This document shows positions 27,616 to 41,071 of a DNA stretch of 41,071 nt, piece after piece; position 1 is the stretch's first letter, and every line of letters starts with the position of its first letter. The notes beneath the pieces were generated by a model. That model searched no databases and was not told the DNA's origin. It worked only from the letters and a program-made list of their open reading frames with translations. The translations under genes were made by a program, and so were the position numbers. The stretch is from Pseudoxanthomonas sp. GTDB lineage: Bacteria > Pseudomonadota > Gammaproteobacteria > Xanthomonadales > Xanthomonadaceae. The stretch covers positions 14,866 through 55,936 of the forward strand of contig JAGHZW010000122.1 in the NCBI GenBank assembly GCA_017745195.1, in the 5' to 3' direction.

Positions 27616-28264
27616 CGTTCGCCTGTGCGGCCCGCGGCCGCGGCATCGGCGCGATCTCGACGCGGCGGTTGCGGGCACGGCCTTCCTCGTCGGAGTTCGG
27701 GCTGACCGGCTGGTTCGAACCGAACGCGGCGGCGAACACGGATGCGGACGGCACGCCCTCGGCGACCAGGGTGCGGGTCACGGTCAGCGCGCGCTGCGCG
27801 GACAGTTCCCAGTTGTCGTCAAAGCGCGCGTTGCCGTCGCGCACCTGGCGGTCGTCGGTGAAGCCACTGACCATCAGGATCTCGTCGCGCGCGTGCAGGT
27901 AGCCGGCCAGCGGCGCGGCCAGGCTCTTCAGCAGCTCGCGCCCTTCCGGCTGCAGCTGGTCGGAATTGAGCGCGAACAGCACGTTGCCGCGGATGCCGAT
28001 GCGGCCGTCGACCAGGGTCACCCGGCCGGTAGCCAGCGGCACCGCCAGCGCCTGCTCCAGCGCCTGGCGCTGCTGTGCCTCGGCCTGGCTGCGGCGCATT
28101 TCCTTGTCGAGCCGGTCGGCCAGCTGCGCCTGCACCGCGATCACGCCGACCAGGACCAGCACGAACGCACCCAGCAGCACCGACATCAGGTCGGCGAAGC
28201 TGGCCCAGACCGGCGTGCCGAGGTCGGCCCCGCCGGTGTCGTCGGCGTCGGATTCCAGGCTCAT
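27605..28264 (-). CDS. MotB/ZorB-like OmpA-domain protein
   Basis: 219 residues. One membrane helix follows a short acidic N-terminus: PVWASFADLMSVLLGAFVLV, with Asp25 placed like the proton-carrying Asp of MotB and ZorB. A short coiled coil (RLDKEMRRSQAEAQQRQALE) leads to an OmpA-family peptidoglycan-binding domain (LFALNSDQLQPEGRELL, MVSGFTDDRQV, WELSAQRALTVTRTLV, FGSNQPVSPNSDEEGRARNR, RRVEI). Such proteins anchor to the cell wall and form the proton channel with a MotA/ZorA partner. The start overlaps the stop of the upstream MotA-like gene (ATGA). Confidence 0.9.
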   Translation of the reverse strand: MSLESDADDTGGADLGTPVWASFADLMSVLLGAFVLVLVGVIAVQAQLADRLDKEMRRSQAEAQQRQALEQALAVPLATGRVTLVDGRIGIRGNVLFALNSDQLQPEGRELLKSLAAPLAGYLHARDEILMVSGFTDDRQVRDGNARFDDNWELSAQRALTVTRTLVAEGVPSASVFAAAFGSNQPVSPNSDEEGRARNRRVEIAPMPRPRAAQANDGR

Positions 28265-30354
28265 GCGGCCTCTTCGGCCACGGCCGCGCGCGCGCCGCCG
28301 AGCTGCTGCAGGTCGGCCATGATCTGCCGCTGCGCGAGCATGCTCAGGTCGACCACTTCGCGCGCCTGCGCCACGTAATAGGCCAGCTGCTCGTCGCTGC
28401 GCGCCAGCGAGCGGTCCAGCGCGCCCTCGATCGCCTGCAGGCGATCGAGCAGCTCGGCATTGCCCTGGCCGAACAGCTGCACGGCCGAGGCGAAGGCCTC
28501 GCCCAGGCTCGCCACTTCGGTCGCCGCCACGGCCACCTGCGCGGCCACCGCCTCGATCTTGCCGGTCTCGCCGGCGACCTGTTCGCCAAAACGCGTACCG
28601 ACCCGGTCGAGCAGGTCGGCCGAGGTGGCGACCAGCGCATCGATCGCGGCGCGCTGCTCGGTGGAGGCGTGGTTGACCGCGACCAGCAGGGTGTCGAGCG
28701 TGGCCATCATCTGGTTGCGCTCCTCCAGCAGGGCTGTGTCTCGGACCATGCTGTCGGACAGCTTCTGGCGCAGCTCGGCGATGACCTCGGCGGCGGCCTT
28801 CGGCGCTTCGGAGGCGGCCTGCACCAGCTGCCCGATCGCGGCGATGGTCTCGCGCGCGTGCGCCTGCGCCTGGGTGGTGATCGCCTGCGCACTGGCGGCG
28901 AGCGCGTCGCAGATGTCCTGCTGGCGCGCGGCGGTATGCGTGCCGGCGCGCTCCCAGTCCTCACGCAGCGCGGCGCCGGTAGCGGCGAGCTGTCCGGACC
29001 ACGCTTCCAGCCGTTGCGCGTCCTGCGCGGCCAACTGCTGCTGCAGCTGCGCGTGCGAGCGGTCCGCCGCCTCGACCAGCGAGGCAGCCTGCTGTTCGAA
29101 GCCGGATGTCACCGCGGCCAGCGCCTGCGCGCTGCGTTCGGCAAGCACGGCGCTTGCGGCTTCCTGGCGCGCCTGCGCCTGTTCCCAGGCCTGCGCAATG
29201 CGCGCCGCGTCGCCGTCCAGGCGCGCGGACACGCCATCGAGCAGCGTGGCCGAGCGCTGTTCGAAGGTGCTGGCGAAACGCTCCAGCGCACCGTGCAGGT
29301 CGCCGGCCAGCTGGGTATTGGCCTCGCGTTGCGCGGCCAGCGCCGCATCCCAGCGCTCGGCCGCCGCGGCGCTGGCGCCGGCGAAACCGTTCGACAGGCC
29401 GTCGAGCTGGTCGCGCACTGCCTGGGCCACGCTGTCCTGCAGGCGGGTGGCATTGCGCGCCAGGCCGGCCAGCGTGGCTTCCATCGCCGGCTGCAGCGCA
29501 TCGCCAACCGCACGCGCGCTGGCGGCCACGCCCGCCTGCAACGACTGATCGAGCGAGGCGGCCAGCTTCGCGTAGGCCGCCTCGGTGCGTGCATGCGAGG
29601 CCTCGATGCTGGCCAACTGGCGCTCGCCGTTGGCGACATCGCGCTGCTCGAGCGCGGCCATCATCGCCTGCAGGCGGTCGACCAGCGCCGGCATCAGCCC
29701 GGCCTGCTGCTGCAGCAGGCGGAAGGATTCCTCGCGCTGGTGCGCGCGCGAATGCACGCGCAGCGAAGTGGCGATCGCCGCATCCAGCCGCTGCACCGCC
29801 TGCATCCGCTCGCGCCGGCACAGCGCCGAGAGCAGGCCGAGCATCGCCGAACTGGCCACGCCGGCGATCGAGGTGCCGAAGGCGAAGGCGAGGCCCTTGA
29901 CCGGCGCGGCGAGCGAGCCGCGGATCGCGTCGAGGTCGGCCGCACCTTCCATCGCCAGGCCGGTGCCGCGCAGCGTGGCCATCATGCCCAGCAGCGTGCC
30001 GAGCATGCCCAGCAGCACCAGCAGGCCGACCAGGTACGGGGTCAGCGCCGGAGCCGGCAGGGCGACGCGCTCGCCTTCCACGCGCAGGCGCACCGCCTCG
30101 CGCAGGCACGGGTGCAGGCGTTCGAGCCAGCCGGCAAGTCCGTCGTCCGCATCCGTGTCATCGAGCGCGCGCGCCAGCGTGGCCGTGGCCTGCCGGTAGC
30201 GCCGCAGTTCGAGCCCGCCGGTGACGTAACAGGCGCCGATCACCAGGGTCACGACCACGCCGATCGCATTGCTGCCGACGTAACCGGCGCCGATCCAGCA
30301 GATCACTGCGAGGCCGGCGAGGAACAGGAGGGAGTGGAAGGGATGTCGGGTCAT
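28261..30354 (-). CDS. MotA/ZorA-like membrane protein with long coiled-coil tail (DUF802-like)
   Basis: 697 residues. Helices 1 and 2 are in residues ~7-45 (LLFLAGLAVICWIGAGYVGS, GVVVTLVIGACYVTGGLEL), helix 3 is PYLVGLLVLLGMLGTLLGMM, and helix 4 covers GLAFAFGTSIAGVASSAMLG. GTLLGMM and the following FGTSIAGV are the MotA/TolQ/ExbB signature. From ~190 to 680 comes a very long Ala/Gln/Glu-rich helical tail, much longer than in flagellar MotA and reminiscent of the ZorA tail. It is probably a five-fold inner-membrane stator powered by protons with the MotB-like partner. Its start overlaps the DUF3348 stop by 4 bases. Confidence 0.85.
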   Translation of the reverse strand: MTRHPFHSLLFLAGLAVICWIGAGYVGSNAIGVVVTLVIGACYVTGGLELRRYRQATATLARALDDTDADDGLAGWLERLHPCLREAVRLRVEGERVALPAPALTPYLVGLLVLLGMLGTLLGMMATLRGTGLAMEGAADLDAIRGSLAAPVKGLAFAFGTSIAGVASSAMLGLLSALCRRERMQAVQRLDAAIATSLRVHSRAHQREESFRLLQQQAGLMPALVDRLQAMMAALEQRDVANGERQLASIEASHARTEAAYAKLAASLDQSLQAGVAASARAVGDALQPAMEATLAGLARNATRLQDSVAQAVRDQLDGLSNGFAGASAAAAERWDAALAAQREANTQLAGDLHGALERFASTFEQRSATLLDGVSARLDGDAARIAQAWEQAQARQEAASAVLAERSAQALAAVTSGFEQQAASLVEAADRSHAQLQQQLAAQDAQRLEAWSGQLAATGAALREDWERAGTHTAARQQDICDALAASAQAITTQAQAHARETIAAIGQLVQAASEAPKAAAEVIAELRQKLSDSMVRDTALLEERNQMMATLDTLLVAVNHASTEQRAAIDALVATSADLLDRVGTRFGEQVAGETGKIEAVAAQVAVAATEVASLGEAFASAVQLFGQGNAELLDRLQAIEGALDRSLARSDEQLAYYVAQAREVVDLSMLAQRQIMADLQQLGGARAAVAEEAA

Positions 30355-33325: not shown

Positions 33326-34591
33326 ATGACCGGACTGGCGCTCGCCCACGCGCCGCCCGCGCCGCGGCCGTTGCGCTTCCTGCTGACCGTGCCGTTGTGG
33401 GGCGTAGTCGCCGGCCTGCTGCTGGCCGCCTCTCCCGATGCGCTCGCCAGCGGACGCTGGGCGCCGCCCGCGGTGGCGCTGGTGCACGTGTTCACCTTGG
33501 GCGTGCTCGGCAACGCGATGCTCGGCAGCCTGCTGCAGTTCCTGCCGGTGGCCGCGCGCACGCCCGTCCCGGACATGCGCCTGGCGCCGCTGGCGCATGC
33601 CGCGCTCAACCTCGGCCTGGGCCTGTTCGTGGTGGCGCTGTACCGCGACCACGCGCTGCTGCTGCATGCCTCGTGCCTGCTGGTCTTGGCGCTGCTGTGC
33701 GTGGTCCTGCCGCCGTTGCCGGGACTGCTGCGCAGCGGTGCGCTGCGCCTGCTGCGCGGCGGCATCGGCGCCGCGCTGGCGGCGCTGCTGGGCACGGTGC
33801 TGCTGGGCCTGCTCGCCGCCGCGGTGCTCGGCGGACGCGTGGTCCTGCCGCTGGACCGGCTGGTCGATGCGCACGCCACGCTCGGCCTCGGTGGCTGGAT
33901 GCTGGGCCTGCTCGCCGCGGTCGGCAGCGTGACCGTGCCGATGTTCCAGGGCACCTCGGCAATCCCGCCGCGCGCGCTCGCCACGTGGTTGGCCTGCGCC
34001 CTGCCGCTGCCGTTTATCGCCGCCGGCGCGCGCCTGCTCGGTGCGCCGGCGCTGGTCCCGGCACTGGCGCTGGCGTTGCCGGCGCTCGCCTTCGCCGGCG
34101 CGCTGTGGTGGCTGCACCGGCATGCGCCGCACCAGCGCAATCCGTCGCTGGTCCGCTTCTGGCGCGCCGGCAGCCTCGCCCTCGCCCTCGCCGGCATCGC
34201 CGCGACCGCCGCCGCGCTGGGCGCGCCGGGGGCGATCCTCGCCGGCGTGCTGGCGCTCGGCATCGGCGTGCCGCTGCTGGTCAACGGCATGCTGCTGGAG
34301 ATCGTCGCCTTCATCACCTGGATCGCGCTGCGCGGCCAGTGCCCGCGCGGCGTGCGGATTCCCGCGGTCGGCAGGCTGGTCACCGACGCGGAGAAGCACG
34401 CGGCGCTGTGCGCGCACCTGGCGGCCGCCGCGCTGCTGCTGGCTGCGCTCGCCTGGCCGGTACTCGCGCGCCTGGCGGGCATCGCGCTGGCGCTCGCCTA
34501 TGCCACCAGCGGCGGTTGCCTGCTGCGCTGCCTGCAGCGCGCGCGCGACTTCCGCCTCGAACACGGACACCCGCAGGGAGCCACCGCATGA
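33326..34591 (+). CDS. Multi-pass membrane protein, NnrS/heme-copper-like
   Basis: 421 residues with about 11 to 12 helices. Notable motifs are VALVHVFTLGVLGNAMLGSL followed by QFLPVAA, then AHAALNLGLGLFVVALY, DAHATLGLGGWMLGLLAAVG and GSVTVPMFQGT, with His residues positioned like heme or metal ligands. It resembles the diverse NnrS and oxidase-subunit-like membrane proteins of denitrifiers, but I cannot assign a family with certainty. GAGGGG lies before the ATG. It overlaps the next gene by 4 bases and shares the operon's FNR/DNR-type box. A role in NO or redox handling is inferred. Confidence 0.7.
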   Translation: MTGLALAHAPPAPRPLRFLLTVPLWGVVAGLLLAASPDALASGRWAPPAVALVHVFTLGVLGNAMLGSLLQFLPVAARTPVPDMRLAPLAHAALNLGLGLFVVALYRDHALLLHASCLLVLALLCVVLPPLPGLLRSGALRLLRGGIGAALAALLGTVLLGLLAAAVLGGRVVLPLDRLVDAHATLGLGGWMLGLLAAVGSVTVPMFQGTSAIPPRALATWLACALPLPFIAAGARLLGAPALVPALALALPALAFAGALWWLHRHAPHQRNPSLVRFWRAGSLALALAGIAATAAALGAPGAILAGVLALGIGVPLLVNGMLLEIVAFITWIALRGQCPRGVRIPAVGRLVTDAEKHAALCAHLAAAALLLAALAWPVLARLAGIALALAYATSGGCLLRCLQRARDFRLEHGHPQGATA

Positions 34592-35016
34592 GCGCCAGGC
34601 CGCCACTCGTCTACAGCTGCTCGGGCTGCTCCAGCGCCGCGCAGATGGCCAACCAGATGGCGCTGTGGCTGGACCGCGCCGGTGCGGCGGAGATGTCGTG
34701 CATTGCCGGCGTCGGTGGCGGCGTGGCCGGACTGGTACGCACGGCGCAGTCGGGCCGGCCGATCCTGGCCCTGGACGGCTGCGTGCTGCATTGCGTGCGC
34801 GCCTGCCTGGAGCGCGCGGGCGTGCAACCCGATGCGCACCTGACCCTGTCGGACCACGGCGTGCGCAAGCGCAAGCACGCTGATTTCGACCAGGCGCAGG
34901 CACAGGCGGTGTATCGCGAAGCCGTGCTGCCGGCGGCCCTGGCGCTGGGCGTGGCCGGCGCGGCGACCGTCGTCGAAGCGGAAGCCGAGGACGAAGACGA
35001 TCCACAGTCCGGCTGA
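34588..35016 (+). CDS. DGC-type putative zinc-binding protein
   Basis: 142 residues of the DGC family (PF08859-like), named after the Asp-Gly-Cys motif, here ALDGCVLHCVRACLERAG. The N-terminal cysteines are in YSCSGCSSAAQMANQMALWL and SCIAGVGGGVAGL; the C-terminal part has GVRKRKHADFD. The cysteines are expected to hold zinc; function is unknown. Start overlaps the membrane protein's stop (ATGA) with AGGGAG upstream. Third gene of the DUF2249 operon. Confidence 0.85.
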   Translation: MSARPPLVYSCSGCSSAAQMANQMALWLDRAGAAEMSCIAGVGGGVAGLVRTAQSGRPILALDGCVLHCVRACLERAGVQPDAHLTLSDHGVRKRKHADFDQAQAQAVYREAVLPAALALGVAGAATVVEAEAEDEDDPQSG

Positions 35017-35052: not shown

Positions 35053-35094
35053 TTGATCTGGATCAGGAGCAGCAGCATGTGCCGTCGCTAGCAT
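35053..35094 (+). promoter_or_regulatory. FNR-type promoter of chorismate mutase-ubiT
   Basis: TTGATCTGGATCAG (35053-35066) differs from the ideal FNR box only in the last base. TAGCAT (35089-35094), a 4/6 match to TATAAT, is centred 32 bases from the box centre. The ubiU promoter has the identical hexamer at the identical distance. The box centre is 66.5 bases before the ATG. Confidence 0.75.
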
Positions 35095-35125
35095 CGACGG
35101 CGCTCGCCACTTGCCGCGGATCCGC

Positions 35126-36013
35126 ATGCACACGCTTCGAGGTTTGCCGCCGTCGTCCGTGTCCCGGGAGGGAGCGGCGCGCCGTATCGCCGCCGGGACG
35201 CTGGCCGGCGCACGCCACGCGATCGATCGGGTCGACGATGCGGTCGTGGCCCTGGCCGGGCTGCGCCGCCGACTTGTCGGCGCGGTCCACCGGAGCAAGC
35301 GCCTGGCCGGCATGCCGGTCCGCGATGGCGAGCGCGAGGCGGGGGTGCTGTCACGCGCGCGGCGGGTGGCTGCGCGCGTGGCAGTACCCGGTGACACCGC
35401 CGACGCGCTGATGCGCGTGCTGATGTCCGATGCCTGCCGGCAGCAGGCCCAGGCCGGCGATGCCGGCCCTCCATTCACGATCGCCATGCCTTCGTTCCCG
35501 CCCTCACCCCTGTCCCCGGATGCAAACCACCGGCTGCTGCGCCTGCTGCCGCCGCCGCGGCGGTTGAAACCGCTGCTGCGCCGCCTGCCGCGCGCCGTGC
35601 ACACGCCCCTGGCCGAACGCGTGCTGGCGCGCGCGGTGCGCCGGATCGATCCGGGCACGCTCGACATCGTGCGCGGACGCCGGCTCGGCATCGAGGTGCA
35701 GGACCTGGGCCTGGCCTGGGTGTTCGCCTGGGACGGCCAGCAGCTGCGCGCGTGCGACGCGCCGGCCGAGTCGACCGTGCGCGGCAGCGCCACCGACCTG
35801 CTCGGCCTGGCCAGCCGCCAGGAGGATGCCGACACCCTGTTCTTCCAGCGCCGCCTGGTCCTGACCGGCGACGTCGAACTCGGCCTGACCGTGCGCAACC
35901 TGCTCGACCGCCTGCCGTGGGAAGACCTGCCGCTGGGGCTGCGCATCGTCCTGCGCCGCGGCAGCCAGCTGCTGCGCGCGGCGCGCGACGCGCACGCGAA
36001 CCGCGCCTCGTGA
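35126..36013 (+). CDS. ubiT: Chorismate mutase (AroQ)-UbiT fusion protein
   Basis: 295 residues. Residues ~25-107 are an AroQ-type chorismate mutase: RHAIDRVDDAVVALAGLRRR, SKRLAGMPVRDGEREAGVL, ACRQQ. Aligned without gaps to the E. coli P-protein mutase domain, all key residues are kept: Arg30, Arg47, Lys58, Asp67, Arg70, Glu71 and Gln107. After a Pro-rich linker comes an SCP2-fold UbiT domain from ~130 (LLRLLPPPRRLKPLLRRLPR, GTLDIVRGRRLGIEVQDLGL, ATDLLGLASRQEDADTLFFQ, LTGDVELGLTVRNLLDRLPW). UbiT binds quinone lipids in oxygen-independent ubiquinone synthesis with UbiU/UbiV. The ATG is weakly placed; a TTG at 35111 is an alternative. ATG 35486 would give UbiT alone but has no ribosome site. 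The stop overlaps the nadA GTG. Confidence 0.88.
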   Translation: MHTLRGLPPSSVSREGAARRIAAGTLAGARHAIDRVDDAVVALAGLRRRLVGAVHRSKRLAGMPVRDGEREAGVLSRARRVAARVAVPGDTADALMRVLMSDACRQQAQAGDAGPPFTIAMPSFPPSPLSPDANHRLLRLLPPPRRLKPLLRRLPRAVHTPLAERVLARAVRRIDPGTLDIVRGRRLGIEVQDLGLAWVFAWDGQQLRACDAPAESTVRGSATDLLGLASRQEDADTLFFQRRLVLTGDVELGLTVRNLLDRLPWEDLPLGLRIVLRRGSQLLRAARDAHANRAS

Positions 36014-37047
36014 GCGGCGCCGTATCCGCGGCCCGGCCGCGCTGGGATCCGGCGCTCGAAGAGCGCTACGCCGAACTGGGCGCGACCCTCGAACCGCTGC
36101 TGCCGTGCCTGGAATGGCCGCTGCACCTGCCGTGGATCGACGCGATCCGCACGCTCAAGCGCGAGCGTGGCGCGGTGATCATGGCCCACAGCTACCAGTC
36201 GCCGGAGATCTTCCACGGCGTGGCCGACGTGACCGGCGACTCGCTGGCGCTGGCCCGTGCCGCCGCCGACTGCCACGCGCAGCTGATCGTGCTGGCCGGC
36301 GTCCACTTCATGGCCGAGAGCGCCAAGATCCTGGCCCCGGACAAGACCGTGCTGATCCCGGACCTGGAAGCCGGCTGCTCGCTGGCCTCCTCGATCACCG
36401 CCGCCGACGTGCGCGCGCTGCGTGCGTTGCATCCGGGCGTGCCGGTGGTCAGCTACGTCAACACCAGCGCCGAGGTGAAAGCCGAATCGGACGCCTGCTG
36501 CACCTCGGCCAATGCCGTGCAGGTGGTCGAGGCGATGGCCACCGAATTCGCCTCCAGCAAGGTGATCTTCCTGCCCGACCGCTTCCTCGGCCACCACGTC
36601 GCCCAGCACACCGGCATCGAACTGGTGCTGTGGGACGGCCGCTGCGAGGTCCACGAACAGTTCACCGCGCAGCAGGCGCGGCATGCCCGCGAACGCTTCG
36701 ACGCGCGCCTGGTCGCCCATCCCGAATGTCCGCCCGAAGTGCAGGAGGAAGCCGACTTCGTCGGCTCGACCACCGCGATGGGCGCATGGCTCGAACGCGA
36801 AAAGCCGCAGCGCGTGGCGCTGATCACCGAATGCTCGATGGCCGACAACCTGCGCGCGCGCTTCCCGCGGGTGGAGTTCATCAAGCCCTGCAACCTGTGC
36901 CCGCACATGCAGCGGATCACCTTGCCGAACATCCACGCCTGCCTGCAGGAACTGCGCCACGAAGTGGTGGTGCCGGAGGCGATCGCCGCACGCGCGCGCA
37001 CCGCGCTTGAGCGGATGCTGGCGGTGGGGCGGCACGACCGCGCGTGA
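36010..37047 (+). CDS. nadA: Quinolinate synthase A
   Basis: 345 residues. It condenses iminoaspartate with dihydroxyacetone phosphate to quinolinate, using a [4Fe-4S] cluster. Visible motifs are AVIMAHSYQSPEIFHGVADV, GDSLALAR, VHFMAESAKILAPDKTVLIP and the cluster cysteines in ESDACCTSANA, LITECSMADN and KPCNLCPHM. The GTG start lies in a GTGA overlap with ubiT, and the stop overlaps the nadB GTG, so the three are translationally coupled. Oxygen-labile NadA sitting behind an FNR-type box fits an anaerobic programme. Confidence 0.95.
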   Translation: MSGAVSAARPRWDPALEERYAELGATLEPLLPCLEWPLHLPWIDAIRTLKRERGAVIMAHSYQSPEIFHGVADVTGDSLALARAAADCHAQLIVLAGVHFMAESAKILAPDKTVLIPDLEAGCSLASSITAADVRALRALHPGVPVVSYVNTSAEVKAESDACCTSANAVQVVEAMATEFASSKVIFLPDRFLGHHVAQHTGIELVLWDGRCEVHEQFTAQQARHARERFDARLVAHPECPPEVQEEADFVGSTTAMGAWLEREKPQRVALITECSMADNLRARFPRVEFIKPCNLCPHMQRITLPNIHACLQELRHEVVVPEAIAARARTALERMLAVGRHDRA

Positions 37048-38501
37048 GCGCCGGCCGCACCCCCCTGGTGGTGGTCGGCGGCGGCGTGGCCGGGCTTTCG
37101 GTGGCGTTGGCCGCGGCGCCGCGACCGGTCCTGCTGCTGGCCCGCGGTGCCGATGGCGAGGGCAGCGCCAGTGCGCTGGCCCAGGGCGGGATCGCCGCCG
37201 CGGTCGGCGCGGGCGACACGGCGGCGGCGCACGTACGCGACACCATCGTCGCTGGAGCCGGCCACAACGAGACCTTCGCCGTACGCTACCTGGCCACGCA
37301 GGCGCCGCGCGCGATCGCCCGCCTGCAGGCACTGGGCCTGCAGTTCGACCACGACGGCGGCCGCCTGCGCCTGGGTCGCGAAGGCGGCCACCACGCCGAC
37401 CGCATCGTCCACGCCGGCGGCGACGCCAGCGGCGCGCGGCTGGTCGCGGCGCTGGCCAAAGCGGTGCGCGATGCCGGCCATGTCGAGGTCCGCAGCGGGG
37501 TGGCGGTCGATGCGCTGCTGTTGCGCGGCAGCGGCGTCGCCGGCGTGCGCGTGCGCGACGGGCGGGGCGATGCGGCGCTGGTCGAAGCGGCCAACGTGGT
37601 CCTCGCCACGGGCGGGATCGGCGGGCTGTTCGCGGCCAGCACCAATCCGGCCGGCGCCACTGGCAGCGGCCTGGCCTTGGGCCTGGCGGCCGGTGCGCGT
37701 GGACGCGACCTGGAATTCATGCAGTTCCATCCGACCGCGCTGGCGCTGGATCGTGCGAACGACGCCGGCCCGCTGCCGCTGGTCACCGAAGCCCTGCGCG
37801 GCGCCGGCGCGCGCCTGCTCGACGGCCAGGGCCGGCCGCTGATGGCCGGCCTGCATCCATTGGGCGACCTGGCACCGCGCGACCTGGTCGCACGCCGGGT
37901 ATGGCAGGTGCTGCAGCAGGGCGACCGGGTCTGGCTGGACGCGACCCACCTGGGCGATGCGTGGCCGACACACTTCCCCACCGTGCATGCGGCCTGCCGC
38001 GCACACGGCATCGACCCGGCGCGCGAACCGATCCCGGTGACGCCGGCCGCGCATTTCCACATGGGCGGGCTGGCCACCGACCGCGATGGCCGCACCGGCG
38101 TGCACGGCCTGCATGCGGTCGGCGAGGTCGCCTGCAACGGCGTGCACGGTGCCAACCGGCTGGCCAGCAATTCGCTGCTGGAAGGACTCGTGTACGGCCA
38201 TCGGCTGGGCCGGCGCATGGCCACCCGTTCGCTGCCGCGCGCGAGCCGCGGTGCGCATGCCTGGACCAGCCTCGGCCCTGCGGCCGACGGCCACGCCCGG
38301 CAACGGCTGCGCACGCTGCTGTGGAGCGCGCTCGGCCCGGTCCGCAACGGTCGCGACCTGCGCGCCGCGCGGCAGCACCTGCACGACGACGCCGCGGCCT
38401 ACGGCTGGCACGGGCGCCTGGCCATGCAGCTGCTCGACGCGGCACTGGCGCGCGGCGCCAGCCTCGGTGCGCACTACCGCAGCGACGCGTCGGGATCGTA
38501 G
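37044..38501 (+). CDS. nadB: L-aspartate oxidase
   Basis: 485 residues, an FAD flavoprotein of the succinate dehydrogenase/fumarate reductase flavoprotein group that oxidises L-aspartate to iminoaspartate for NadA. Motifs: LVVVGGGVAGLSVALAAAP (FAD), ASALAQGGIAAAVGAGD, VLATGGIGGLFAASTNPAGA, FMQFHPTAL, the catalytic-region TPAAHFHMGGLATD and GANRLASNSLLEGLVYG. The C-terminal helical part is slightly shorter than in E. coli. NadB can pass electrons to oxygen, fumarate or quinones, so it also works without oxygen. The GTG start overlaps nadA's stop. NadC is not in the window. Confidence 0.95.
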   Translation: MSAGRTPLVVVGGGVAGLSVALAAAPRPVLLLARGADGEGSASALAQGGIAAAVGAGDTAAAHVRDTIVAGAGHNETFAVRYLATQAPRAIARLQALGLQFDHDGGRLRLGREGGHHADRIVHAGGDASGARLVAALAKAVRDAGHVEVRSGVAVDALLLRGSGVAGVRVRDGRGDAALVEAANVVLATGGIGGLFAASTNPAGATGSGLALGLAAGARGRDLEFMQFHPTALALDRANDAGPLPLVTEALRGAGARLLDGQGRPLMAGLHPLGDLAPRDLVARRVWQVLQQGDRVWLDATHLGDAWPTHFPTVHAACRAHGIDPAREPIPVTPAAHFHMGGLATDRDGRTGVHGLHAVGEVACNGVHGANRLASNSLLEGLVYGHRLGRRMATRSLPRASRGAHAWTSLGPAADGHARQRLRTLLWSALGPVRNGRDLRAARQHLHDDAAAYGWHGRLAMQLLDAALARGASLGAHYRSDASGS

Positions 38502-38582: not shown

Positions 38583-38650
38583 GGCTCAGCCGGCACCAAC
38601 CGGCGCCAACTGACTCCGGCCGCGTGGCTCAGCCGGCGCCGACCGGTTCC
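38583..38650. repeat. Direct repeat spanning the ubiV 3' end
   Basis: GGCTCAGCCGGCRCCRACCGG occurs twice, 43 bases apart (from 38583 and from 38626). The second copy encodes the last residues and stop of ubiV on the minus strand; the first lies just beyond it. Upstream, CGGTCCA and CGGTGCG units are each doubled (around 38554-38583). The interval 38502-38628 between convergent nadB and ubiV holds nothing else. Confidence 0.65.
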
Positions 38651-39540
38651 GGCGCGGTCGCCAGCGAGGCCTTGCCCGGTTGTCCGTGCCAGTAGCCGTT
38701 GCGCGCGCCCAGCCGTTCCGGAGTTCCCGGCACATCCAGGACGCGGCGGAAGCGGGCGACCACCTCGGCGGTGCCCTCGGCCTGCGGCGAGATCCGCATC
38801 ACCCCCACGCCGCAGGCAGCCAGCGCATCGCGCTCCGGCGCCATGTCGACCACCTCGGTGCCCTGCACCTGGATCCCGTTGATGGTGAGGAACGGCTCGC
38901 CCTCGCGCGTGGCCAGCGGCAGGCCATCGGGATGCTCGATGCAGCGGAAGCCGCACTGGTCCTTGGGCAGGTCGAGGGCGCGCGCGGTGAAGCAGCGCGC
39001 CGAATACGCCAGCGGCAGCCGGCCCCAGGCCAGCATCTCCATTTCCGGCATGTGGCCACCATCGGCCTCGAGCGCGGCGCGCAGTTCCTCCAGCAGCACG
39101 CGGCCGATCTCGGTGCCCGGCACCCAGCGGCGCAGGCCGTCCTCGACCAGCATGGCCAGCGCGCGGTGGTTGTAGACGTTGAGCGTGGGCCCGCCGACGA
39201 ACGGCAGGCCGCGCTCGCGGCACAGCTGCACCGCCGACAGGTCGTTGGCCTCGACCATGTACGCCCCCTGCTCGACCTGGCGCCGGACCACGCCCAGTTC
39301 GGATTCGGCCTCGACCAGGGCGAGAGTCGAGAGCACCACGTCCTTGCCGGCGGCGGACAGTTCCTCGGCCAGCGCCAGCCAGTCGCGGAAGCCCAGCTCG
39401 CGGCGCTTGCTGCACACCGTCTCGCCCAGGTAGACGATGTCGACCGGCCAGTCGGCGACGGCGCGGTAGAACGCCAGCGTGGTCGCGCGCGGCCAGAAGT
39501 ACTGCAGCGGCCCCAGGCTCAGTTTCATCGTGTTCTGCAT
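38629..39540 (-). CDS. ubiV: O2-independent ubiquinone hydroxylation protein UbiV (U32 family)
   Basis: 303 residues of the peptidase U32 family, YhbV/UbiV branch. With UbiU and UbiT it allows ubiquinone ring hydroxylation without oxygen, using prephenate as hydroxyl donor in E. coli. The [4Fe-4S] cysteines are visible: ETVCSKRRELG (Cys43, equal to E. coli Cys39), SARCFTARAL, and KDQCGFRC (two Cys). N-terminus reads MKLSLGPLQYFWPR after a four-residue extension; the first ATG is chosen because AGGAG lies 8 bases upstream. It is 25 bases downstream of ubiU on the same strand. Confidence 0.95.
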   Translation of the reverse strand: MQNTMKLSLGPLQYFWPRATTLAFYRAVADWPVDIVYLGETVCSKRRELGFRDWLALAEELSAAGKDVVLSTLALVEAESELGVVRRQVEQGAYMVEANDLSAVQLCRERGLPFVGGPTLNVYNHRALAMLVEDGLRRWVPGTEIGRVLLEELRAALEADGGHMPEMEMLAWGRLPLAYSARCFTARALDLPKDQCGFRCIEHPDGLPLATREGEPFLTINGIQVQGTEVVDMAPERDALAACGVGVMRISPQAEGTAEVVARFRRVLDVPGTPERLGARNGYWHGQPGKASLATAPEPVGAG

Positions 39541-39565
39541 CGGCAGGCTCCTCATGAGCGGGTCC

Positions 39566-40564
39566 TCAATGCCAGGCGCGGTGGTACGGGCCGAGCGTGG
39601 TCTGCTGGCCTTCGGCATGGGCCGACAGCGCGCGTTGCCATTCGGCGTCGGTGCTCCAGCGCTGCGGGTCGTCGCGGTAGCGGTCGAGCGCCTGGCGCCA
39701 GGTGGAGGCCACCGCGCGCACGTAGGCCACGCCGCGCTGGCGGCCTTCGATCTTCAGCGCAGTCACGCCGGCCTGGGCCAGCCGCGGCAGCAGTTCGATC
39801 GTGTTGAGGCTGGTCGGCTCCTCCAGCGCGTGGAAGATCTCGCCGCGCACGTCGTAACGGCCCTTGCACACGGTCGGGTAGCCGGCCGGCTCGCCCTCGG
39901 CGAAGCGGTCGATCAGCATGCCGTTGACGCGCACGCTGCGGCTCTGGTCGTCGTGCTCGTCCCAGCGCACGAAGCTGGCCGGCGAGCACACGCCGTGCCG
40001 GTTGGGCGACTGGCCGGTGACATAGCTCGACAGCTGGCAACGGCCCTCGACCATGATGCACAGGCTGCCGAAGGCGAACACTTCCAGCGGCACCGGCGAG
40101 GCTTCGCACAGGCGTTCGACCTGCTGCACCGACAGCACCCGCGGCAGCACCGCGCGGGCGATGCCGAAGCGCTCGAATGCGTACTTCAGCGCCGGCGCGG
40201 TGGTCGCCGAGCCCTGCACCGACAGGTGCCGGGCCATCTGCGGATGGGCCTTGCAGGCGTAGTCGAGCACGGCCATCTCGGCGGCGATGATCGCGTCCAC
40301 GCCCAGTTCGGCGGCACGGTCGACCGCGGCCTGCCAGTGCGGCAGGCGCACGCTGTCGGGGTAGGTGTTCAGTGCGACGTAGACCTGCCGGTCCATCGCG
40401 TGCGCGTAGGCGATGCCCTGGCGCAGTTCACGCTCGTCGAAGTTCAGCCCGGGGAACGCGCGCGCATTGGTCTGGTCGCGGAAGCCGGTATAGACCGCGT
40501 CGGCGCCGGCATCGATCGCGGCGCGCAATGCCGGCAGGTTGCCGGCCGGACAGACCAGTTGCAT
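39566..40564 (-). CDS. ubiU: O2-independent ubiquinone hydroxylation protein UbiU (U32 family)
   Basis: 332 residues, YhbU/UbiU branch of U32 proteins. The N-terminus is MQLVCPAGNLPALRAAIDAG, GADAVYTGFRDQTNARAFPG. Cluster cysteines: SLCIMVEGRCQLSSY, RHGVCSPA and YPTVCKGRYD; LKIEGRQRG is the U32 motif. UbiU forms a dimer with UbiV in which each holds a [4Fe-4S] cluster. GAGGAG lies 6 to 7 bases before the ATG. Transcribed toward ubiV from an FNR-type promoter whose -10 equals that of ubiT. ubiD lies upstream on the same strand. Confidence 0.95.
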   Translation of the reverse strand: MQLVCPAGNLPALRAAIDAGADAVYTGFRDQTNARAFPGLNFDERELRQGIAYAHAMDRQVYVALNTYPDSVRLPHWQAAVDRAAELGVDAIIAAEMAVLDYACKAHPQMARHLSVQGSATTAPALKYAFERFGIARAVLPRVLSVQQVERLCEASPVPLEVFAFGSLCIMVEGRCQLSSYVTGQSPNRHGVCSPASFVRWDEHDDQSRSVRVNGMLIDRFAEGEPAGYPTVCKGRYDVRGEIFHALEEPTSLNTIELLPRLAQAGVTALKIEGRQRGVAYVRAVASTWRQALDRYRDDPQRWSTDAEWQRALSAHAEGQQTTLGPYHRAWH

Positions 40565-40592
40565 GGGCGTCTCCTCGTCGAAGTGAGCGGCC

Positions 40593-40634
40593 ATGCTAGG
40601 CGCCGTCGTCGTGGCGCTCATTGATCCATGTCAG
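40593..40634 (-). promoter_or_regulatory. FNR-type promoter of ubiUV
   Basis: On the minus strand the box is CTGACATGGATCAA (plus 40621-40634), one base different from the nnrS box. TAGCAT (plus 40593-40598) is centred 32 bases from the box centre, exactly as before ubiT. The box centre is 63.5 bases from the ubiU ATG. Three imperfect 15-bp repeats around CAGGTCGCCGG (40632-40676) lie just upstream. Confidence 0.75.
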
Positions 40635-40677: not shown

Positions 40678-41071
40678 TCATTCGGGTTCCGGCGTGCGCA
40701 GTAGCGAGGACCACAGCGTGTCCATGCGCTTTTCGACCGCGGGATCCAGCGCGATCGGCCGGCCCCACTCGCGCGCCGATTCGGCGGGCCACTTGCGGGT
40801 CGCGTCCAGGCCGAGCTTGGAGCCCAGTCCCGATACCGGCGTGGCGAAATCGAGGTAATCGATCGGGGTGTTCTCCACCAGCATGCTGTCGCGCGCCGGA
40901 TCGACCCGGGTGGAGAGCGCCCAGATCACCTGGCTCCAGTCGCGCACGTCGACGTCCTCGTCGGTGACGATCACGAACTTGGTGTAGGTGAACTGGCGCA
41001 GGTAGGACCAGATCGCCATCATGATCCGCCGCGCGTGGCCCGGGACGGGGCGAAAACGACGAAGCCTCGGC
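40678..41071 (-). CDS. ubiD: UbiD decarboxylase, C-terminal part (5' end outside window)
   Basis: About 115 C-terminal residues of 4-hydroxy-3-polyprenylbenzoate decarboxylase, the prenyl-FMN enzyme that removes the carboxyl group in ubiquinone synthesis. The match is extensive: [82 protein letters not shown]. The frame extends to the edge as [12 protein letters not shown], but the last ~30 bases no longer resemble UbiD in this frame (RLRRFRPV), suggesting a frame error at the contig end. It ends 113 bases before the ubiU start on the same strand, with the ubiU promoter between. Confidence 0.93.

Follow-up and report, generated by a model that had tools for sequence, protein, structure and literature searches.

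A chorismate mutase domain fused to UbiT in Pseudoxanthomonas and its relatives: a candidate prephenate source for oxygen-independent ubiquinone synthesis

Introduction

Pseudoxanthomonas sp. carries a gene in which a chorismate mutase (CM) of the AroQ type is followed, without interruption, by the ubiquinone biosynthesis factor UbiT. Judged from sequence, the combination of an intact AroQ site, a linker and a UbiT domain is found in one frame across several families, beside ubiUV and behind an FNR-like box. It is probable (about 0.62) that this UbiT-tethered mutase belongs, as a bifunctional protein, to the O2-independent ubiquinone pathway and supplies prephenate to UbiUV. The gene lies in a stretch of 41,071 nucleotides which was analysed as a whole and is called the window here.

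RNA hydroxylation by the U32 proteins RlhA and TrhP depends on prephenate, according to the accessible part of PMC6599085. For anaerobic ubiquinone synthesis, prephenate is reported as the oxygen donor in the available text of PMC11574389 (citing PNAS 2024 e2321242121), in agreement with what the first-pass annotation of this DNA had stated; the same text adds that the exact transformation and direct evidence for prephenate use by U32 hydroxylases are still to be demonstrated. UbiUV-mediated synthesis requires UbiT, which is proposed to bind lipid intermediates (PMC10470549, in the portion available). Considering the need of U32 proteins for prephenate together with the role of UbiT, a UbiT-tethered prephenate source is the most economical explanation of the fusion, although we infer the step from co-location to local prephenate delivery.

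Domain composition and predicted structure

The fusion gene consists of the following parts:

35126..36013, + strand: CM-UbiT fusion gene (single ORF, 295 aa, domain profiles)
35213..35446, + strand: AroQ-type chorismate mutase domain, residues 30-107 (Pfam CM_2, 1ecm match, column conservation)
35456..35515, + strand: linker, residues 111-130 (AlphaFold2 pLDDT about 50-60)
35576..35923, + strand: UbiT SCP2-type lipid-binding domain, residues 151-266 (NF047962, Foldseek match to 6h6p)

The first-pass annotation had read an AroQ mutase and then UbiT in this frame, which is borne out by an open reading frame of 295 residues without a stop and by domain profiles. The mutase profile, on which that reading hinged, is present, with residues 30-107 matching Pfam CM_2 at 47.3 bits (cut-off 27, E 2.4e-12), while residues 176-261 match Pfam SCP2 at 53.3 bits (cut-off 21.3) and the protein reaches 122.3 bits with the NCBIfam UbiT equivalog NF047962 (cut-off 46.9). 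Many NCBIfam CM equivalogs match the mutase half, none of them over its own cut-off (the best, PRK11199, at 39.3 against 273 bits), and the half is therefore classed under the CM_2 superfamily only. The model of the PchB-type isochorismate-pyruvate lyases, NF005475, gives 18.8 bits against a cut-off of 126. As to the translation start, inspection by eye found no clear Shine-Dalgarno sequence before 35126, a TTG at 35111 is an alternative start, and relatives of the same genus have a Met at or near 35126.

Structure prediction, which had been proposed as a check of the fusion, recovered both folds. The AlphaFold2 model (60 sequences, mean pLDDT 88.5, pTM 0.65) contains the three helices of an AroQ domain, the first long and the other two shorter, a linker of low confidence and then an SCP2 fold. 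In this predicted model the mutase half superposes on E. coli CM (1ecm_A) with an rmsd of 1.1 Å over 91 residues and a Z of 11.7; for helical domains a Z of about 12 does not settle the fold by itself, and the structural match agrees with the sequence match. The first Foldseek match of the modelled UbiT half is the UbiJ-SCP2 structure 6h6p (Z 11.1, rmsd 3.0 Å, 112 residues). Among seven sequences of the genus, with the frameshifted locus L039 left out, ratios of mean NG86 values give a dN/dS of 0.25 for the mutase half (21 pairs), 0.43 for the UbiT half (21 pairs) and about 1.0 for linker residues 109-137 (19 pairs). The mutase half is therefore constrained at least as strongly as UbiT.

Distribution and evolution of the fusion

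When 297 genomes of the family were searched with the fusion protein, 75 had a match, in some cases to CM or UbiT alone, and besides the window 64 regions were fetched from 63 matching genomes. CM and UbiT share a single frame at 60 family loci, the window counted. The other five fetched regions show no confirmed fusion: in L092 a run of N precedes UbiT, L093 contains UbiT without CM, L094 and L095 stop at contig edges, and L096 holds a CM fragment only. A scan of named relatives, which was restricted to the best 80 of 282 and is thereby biased towards this group, found the fusion at 79 of 80 loci, the sole unfused one (L249) being the likely counterpart of the gapped L092. A frameshift between the domains had been a concern; both halves are in frame at the 60 family loci and at these 79 of 80 named loci, which also rules out an artefact or a chance fusion. 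Among the same best 80 of 282, the hosts include Pseudoxanthomonas, Stenotrophomonas, Lysobacter, Luteimonas, Thermomonas, Arenimonas, Dyella, Rhodanobacter, Frateuria and Dokdonella, and the closest relatives are Pseudoxanthomonas species with 71-79% identity over the best segment.

Three loci are unusual. In Pseudoxanthomonas sp. NC8 (L039/L231, genome G282) the UbiT half is out of frame from about residue 161 to 230; this genome is estimated to be only 57% complete, so that a sequencing error is likely. Dyella jiangningensis SBZ 3-12 has two fusion copies on one chromosome record (L245 and L247) with equal identity to the query, which may reflect a duplication or an assembly effect. A metagenome-assembled genome labelled Erythrobacter (L293) has a fusion of xanthomonad type in an alphaproteobacterial bin, and its contig is probably misbinned.

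The occurrence of the fusion follows that of UbiU. Taking the 297 genomes of the fusion search and of the UbiU tally as the same set, 65 have a UbiU match above the cut-off and 59 of these a confirmed fusion; the fusion is present in one of the 232 without a UbiU match (G014, 82% complete). A survey of UbiT homologues for co-occurrence with ubiUV had been suggested by the first-pass annotation. Long-term conservation of the fusion is supported as well. A fully general link is not exact, as six UbiU-positive genomes are without a confirmed fusion. These show a run of N (G272), contig edges (G151 and G168, the latter with a CM fragment at another contig end), UbiT without CM (G104) or no UbiT match (G056 and G110).

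In the wider order, 80 of 299 genomes are over the UbiT cut-off. The 31 loci that were fetched from outside the family, partly picked for long frames, inform on presence and not on frequency. Three further families of the order carry the fusion, at 12 of 15 loci in f186, 4 of 4 in f177 and 1 of 1 in f176, and among the examined order loci it is found at none of the 11 from f181, f182, f183 and f185. Outside the order, no fusion was found in the 56 other gammaproteobacterial UbiT loci examined, with 85 non-family genomes over the cut-off. These 56 comprise 14 loci that were picked for long frames and cover only about 2.5 kb per side, three more (L142-L144) and 39, with G443 counted once; in one further locus set the scan covered 30 listed loci, with the alphaproteobacterial ones outside it.

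In a quick tree of the UbiT domain (84 rows) all 58 fused rows fall into one group with an SH-aLRT of 92, together with seven unfused rows, of which one is the gapped assembly L092. The tree needs seven changes of fusion state, five of them forced by strongly supported branches. The pattern fits a single gain of the fusion followed by several losses, a history compatible with the tree without proving a single origin. Two of the unfused UbiT genes look like remnants of the fusion when inspected by eye, as L124 retains the CM tail and the linker and L120 the linker alone. Six UbiT genes in which no CM was detected lie within the fused group of the tree, so the mutase half is dispensable in places.

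The active site of the mutase half

The mutase half aligns with E. coli CM (1ecm) without gaps. Arg30, Arg47, Lys58, Asp67, Arg70, Glu71 and Gln107 correspond to E. coli Arg11, Arg28, Lys39, Asp48, Arg51, Glu52 and Gln88, which we take to be the active-site residues of the enzyme, with Arg11 coming from the partner chain. The alignment confirms the seven residues for which an intact site had been claimed; at an eighth pocket position, Ser84 in E. coli, the window protein has Ala and nearly all relatives have Ala or Gly.

All seven residues are present in 57 of the 60 family fusion loci, the window protein included. The three exceptions (L089-L091) come from a single genus, g33, in which Gln88 is lost in all three and Lys39 also in one. 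Over the 60 family loci, E71, R70, D67, R47, D37 and R30 are conserved in 60, K58, D34 and I33 in 59, and Q107 and L43 in 57, so that every one of the seven catalytic residues ranks within the first eleven of the 82 CM columns. At the named loci the R, R, K, R, E and Q are retained in 79 of 79, with the Asp48 position being Asp in 75 and Asn in four. When the window was combined with 59 sequences of the named scan (n = 60), the catalytic residues were invariant except for Asp67. All seven columns are also invariant in an alignment of 30 sequences, which was hand-picked and leaves out the g33 loci lacking Gln88.

Free-standing chorismate mutase genes beside ubiT

An association of CM with ubiT is also found in unfused form. 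A free-standing CM_2 gene (Pfam 60-67 bits) adjoins ubiT in 4 of the 56 other gammaproteobacterial loci, divergently in L159, L166 and L178, and downstream on the same strand in L184. By a rough estimate, two or three CM genes per genome would lead by chance to well under one such adjacency in 56. In family f40, 7 of 12 genomes match the free-standing CM, which lies beside ubiT in 7 of 7 (L215-L221), while in family f165 one of two genomes matched, namely the query's own. The CM gene of L178 also adjoins a gene for a large membrane protein, presumably nitric oxide reductase.

The free-standing proteins (families f40, f165, f148 and f175) keep R11, R28, K39, R51 and E52, and in the alignment they have Gly, Asp, Ala or Val in place of Gln88. 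Asp48 is altered as well, with the exception of L178. With Gln88 lost and Asp48 mostly changed, these proteins are unlikely to be ordinary mutases. This implies that catalysis may not be the common denominator of the association outside the order.

Genomic neighbourhood

The fusion gene stands between a gene for a DGC protein and nadA and nadB, with ubiV, ubiU and ubiD following on the opposite strand:

34588..35016, + strand: DGC-domain protein (PF08859, 118 bits on the longer frame 34498-35016)
36010..37047, + strand: nadA, quinolinate synthase, overlapping the stop of the fusion gene (NF006878 352 bits and TIGR00550 312 bits, both over cut-off)
37044..38501, + strand: nadB-like L-aspartate oxidase (TIGR00551, 440 bits, just below the cut-off of 453)
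38629..39618, - strand: ubiV (NF047965, 353 bits, cut-off 275; model starts at residue 32)
39566..40621, - strand: ubiU (NF047963, 528 bits, cut-off 440; model starts at residue 20)
40678..41022, - strand: ubiD, 3' part, running off the window (NF008175, positions 382-488 of 497)

Both UbiU and UbiV are over their cut-offs inside the window, which supports the co-localisation of the hydroxylase genes with the fusion. Some fetched stretches are cut by contig ends, and with this limit ubiU and ubiV lie within the stretch at 51 of the 60 family loci, nadA directly downstream of the fusion at 46 and the DGC gene nearby at 21. As the ubiU model begins at residue 20, the real start is probably a Met near 40564 and the listed start would be 19 codons too early.

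A membrane-protein-like frame at 33326-34591 (+) is retained close to the fusion at 33 of the 60 family loci. It has no Pfam or NCBIfam match, and the label nnrS was a guess that no profile match supports. Elsewhere in the window, 28261-30354 (-) encodes a DUF802 protein (79.5 bits).

The genome contains a second CM_2 gene in a frame of 483 aa, which by eye looks like the P-protein of phenylalanine synthesis. No match to Chor_lyase (UbiC) was found in the genome, which is 88% complete.

Promoter elements and the internal start

The first-pass annotation had placed the gene under an anaerobic promoter, and a sequence match to the FNR consensus upstream of it agrees with this. The elements are:

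35053..35066, + strand: FNR/ANR-like box TTGATCTGGATCAG, 1 mismatch, upstream of the fusion gene
35089..35094, + strand: possible -10 element TAGCAT, read from the sequence
35486..35488, + strand: internal in-frame ATG, residue 121, poorly conserved in the genus
40621..40634, - strand: FNR-like box CTGACATGGATCAA, 2 mismatches, directly upstream of the likely ubiU start

With the consensus TTGATN4ATCAA, the whole 41-kb window contains two sites at up to one mismatch, compared with a mean of 0.11 in shuffled sequences, of which 1 in 100 had two. In the genus, 6 of 8 loci have a box at up to two mismatches at a similar position with respect to the CM domain. Class II FNR promoters follow a spacing rule, and the distance from the box to the possible -10 element would possibly suit such a promoter with a transcription start near 35101. 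The box before ubiU, CTGACATGGATCAA, is weaker than TTGATCTGGATCAG and overlaps the first ATG of the listed ubiU frame.

Across the 60 family loci, a box at up to two mismatches lies within 450 nt upstream in 26, in the linker in 24, in either place in 46 and in neither in 14, and 0.88 sites per region are seen against 0.06 expected from first-order random sequences. At the 79 named loci (from the best 80 of 282), for which 250 nt upstream were searched, 18 have a box upstream only, 35 in the linker only, seven in both places and 19 in neither. The linker box lies within coding sequence and mostly reads Asp-Leu-Asp-Gln, yet it is written with GAT and CAA, two codons otherwise avoided in these GC-rich genes (GAT:GAC 36:8 in the box vs 118:252 elsewhere, p 2e-10; CAA:CAG 21:3 vs 37:177, p 6e-12). 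These p-values are too small, since the genomes are related to one another and the boxes had been picked for their match to the consensus. Downstream of the linker box, an in-frame ATG lies at +46 from the box centre in 19 of 24 loci and at +43 in 4 of 24. Anaerobic induction from a linker box should therefore yield UbiT alone. In lineages with such a box (e.g. L042), FNR probably activates a short UbiT transcript in addition, which would give two proteoforms per gene, while in the window's genus it probably drives the whole fusion.

UbiT translated only from the ATG at 35486 is rejected as the main product: the box lies upstream of the mutase half, no FNR-like box at up to three mismatches starts in 35067-35520 of the window, Met121 is kept in only 3-4 of 8 loci of the genus (depending on the alignment), and the mutase half is under purifying selection. 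Some Met is found in the linker at 7 of 8 loci of the genus, and an additional short product from 35486 may be made in the window genome.

Discussion

The mutase half is like E. coli CM, the AroQ domain of the N-terminal part of the P-protein (1ecm), in its fold, gap-free alignment and seven catalytic residues, and unlike it in sharing only 25-27% identity, in the Ala at Ser84 and in having UbiT rather than prephenate dehydratase as its partner. The UbiT half resembles E. coli UbiT (YhbT) in its SCP2-type domain, in the adjacency to ubiUV and in the FNR-like box. In contrast to the fusion, E. coli UbiT has 174 aa, is mostly SCP2 and carries no mutase, and a UbiT-UbiU gene fusion is described for Zymomonas mobilis (both from the available part of PMC6747719). 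The Zymomonas protein is a UbiT fusion too, but its partner is a hydroxylase subunit and not a donor-making enzyme. In CM-TyrA, CM-PheA and DAHP synthase-CM an AroQ domain is likewise attached to a partner enzyme from its own pathway; these fusions serve aromatic amino acid synthesis, unlike CM-UbiT. To our knowledge, no CM fusion carries a lipid-binding quinone factor.

The U32 hydroxylases TrhP and RlhA, going by the accessible text of PMC6599085, are comparable in that prephenate-dependent hydroxylation occurs in the UbiUV superfamily. They act on RNA, unlike the UbiUV system. We know of no dedicated tethered mutase for TrhP or RlhA. The first-pass annotation knew of no description of the CM-UbiT fusion; none is among the papers listed in searches of an open-licence library either, and the available parts of PMC6747719 and PMC11707229 do not mention it. 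The fusion joins a known enzyme fold to a known pathway factor, a conserved pairing which seems to be undescribed.

The proposed mechanism would begin with oxygen depletion, upon which FNR would turn on the fusion gene. The mutase half would dimerise as AroQ enzymes do, with its pocket taking an arginine from the partner chain, and convert chorismate to prephenate, while the UbiT half would hold the polyprenyl-phenol intermediate and dock UbiU-UbiV. Prephenate would then arise beside the Fe-S hydroxylases that take its oxygen, and the pathway would have a donor supply of its own, apart from the P-protein-like mutase of the genome. In lineages with a linker box, a second, UbiT-only form would probably be made as well. 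The linker boxes of 24 of 60 family loci and the absence of Gln88 from the free-standing neighbours complicate this mechanism. Nor does the pathway strictly require tethering, since prephenate can diffuse and there are other mutases; E. coli uses an unfused UbiT.

AroQ proteins are dimers, and the mutase half could mainly be a dimerisation or docking scaffold for UbiT in the anaerobic Ubi complex, its activity being incidental. The persistence of the domain despite the loss of Gln88 in genus g33 and in the free-standing neighbours is in line with this, but a scaffold would have no need of Lys58, Glu71 and Gln107, and the rank of the catalytic residues among the most conserved columns, together with their retention in 57 of 60 loci, makes it an unlikely explanation. 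Slightly less likely still is a donor carrier of CM fold which binds prephenate or chorismate and hands it to UbiUV, the mutase step being kept in this order only. The free-standing neighbours of four families would suit such a role, as they keep five of the pocket residues without Q88 and, all but that of L178, have lost D48; the fused proteins, however, almost always retain both Q88 and D48.

The remaining explanations concern other uses of the mutase. It could serve aromatic amino acids in general or further prephenate users such as TrhP and CmoA, with the fusion to UbiT as a by-product of gene order, and several users of prephenate do exist (PMC6599085, in the part available). This is improbable considering the second CM gene in the genome, the tie of the fusion to UbiU (59 of 65 genomes with, 1 of 232 without) and the recurrence of the CM-ubiT association in unfused form elsewhere. 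Least probable, and by a wide measure doubtful, is a lyase that helps to supply the ring precursor 4-hydroxybenzoate. The missing UbiC match and the fold shared with PchB, an isochorismate-pyruvate lyase, would speak for it; yet PchB-type lyases make salicylate and not 4-hydroxybenzoate, and the missing UbiC has to be weighed against a genome that is only 88% complete. In addition, XanB2-type enzymes give 3- and 4-hydroxybenzoate from chorismate, as stated in the available text of PMC3949708. A UbiT-tethered mutase supplying prephenate to UbiUV is the preferred reading.

A wider model goes beyond the fusion and is put forward tentatively, at somewhat less than even odds. Gammaproteobacteria would have repeatedly recruited CM-fold proteins as oxygen-donor modules of the anaerobic ubiquinone machine, as an active UbiT-tethered prephenate synthase in the Xanthomonadales/Lysobacterales and elsewhere as altered CM-like neighbours of ubiT that bind or hand over prephenate. 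The FNR switch would have moved between the front of the fusion and the linker, tuning the ratio of tethered mutase to free UbiT.

For the chemistry in which prephenate donates the oxygen, evidence at the level of genomes comes from this conserved protein, in which the lipid-binding partner of UbiUV is physically linked to a prephenate-forming domain. It also offers a single polypeptide with which donor supply, lipid binding and hydroxylation could be tested together and perhaps reconstituted. For the biology of these bacteria, it means that an apparent chorismate mutase gene in their genomes may be a respiration gene.
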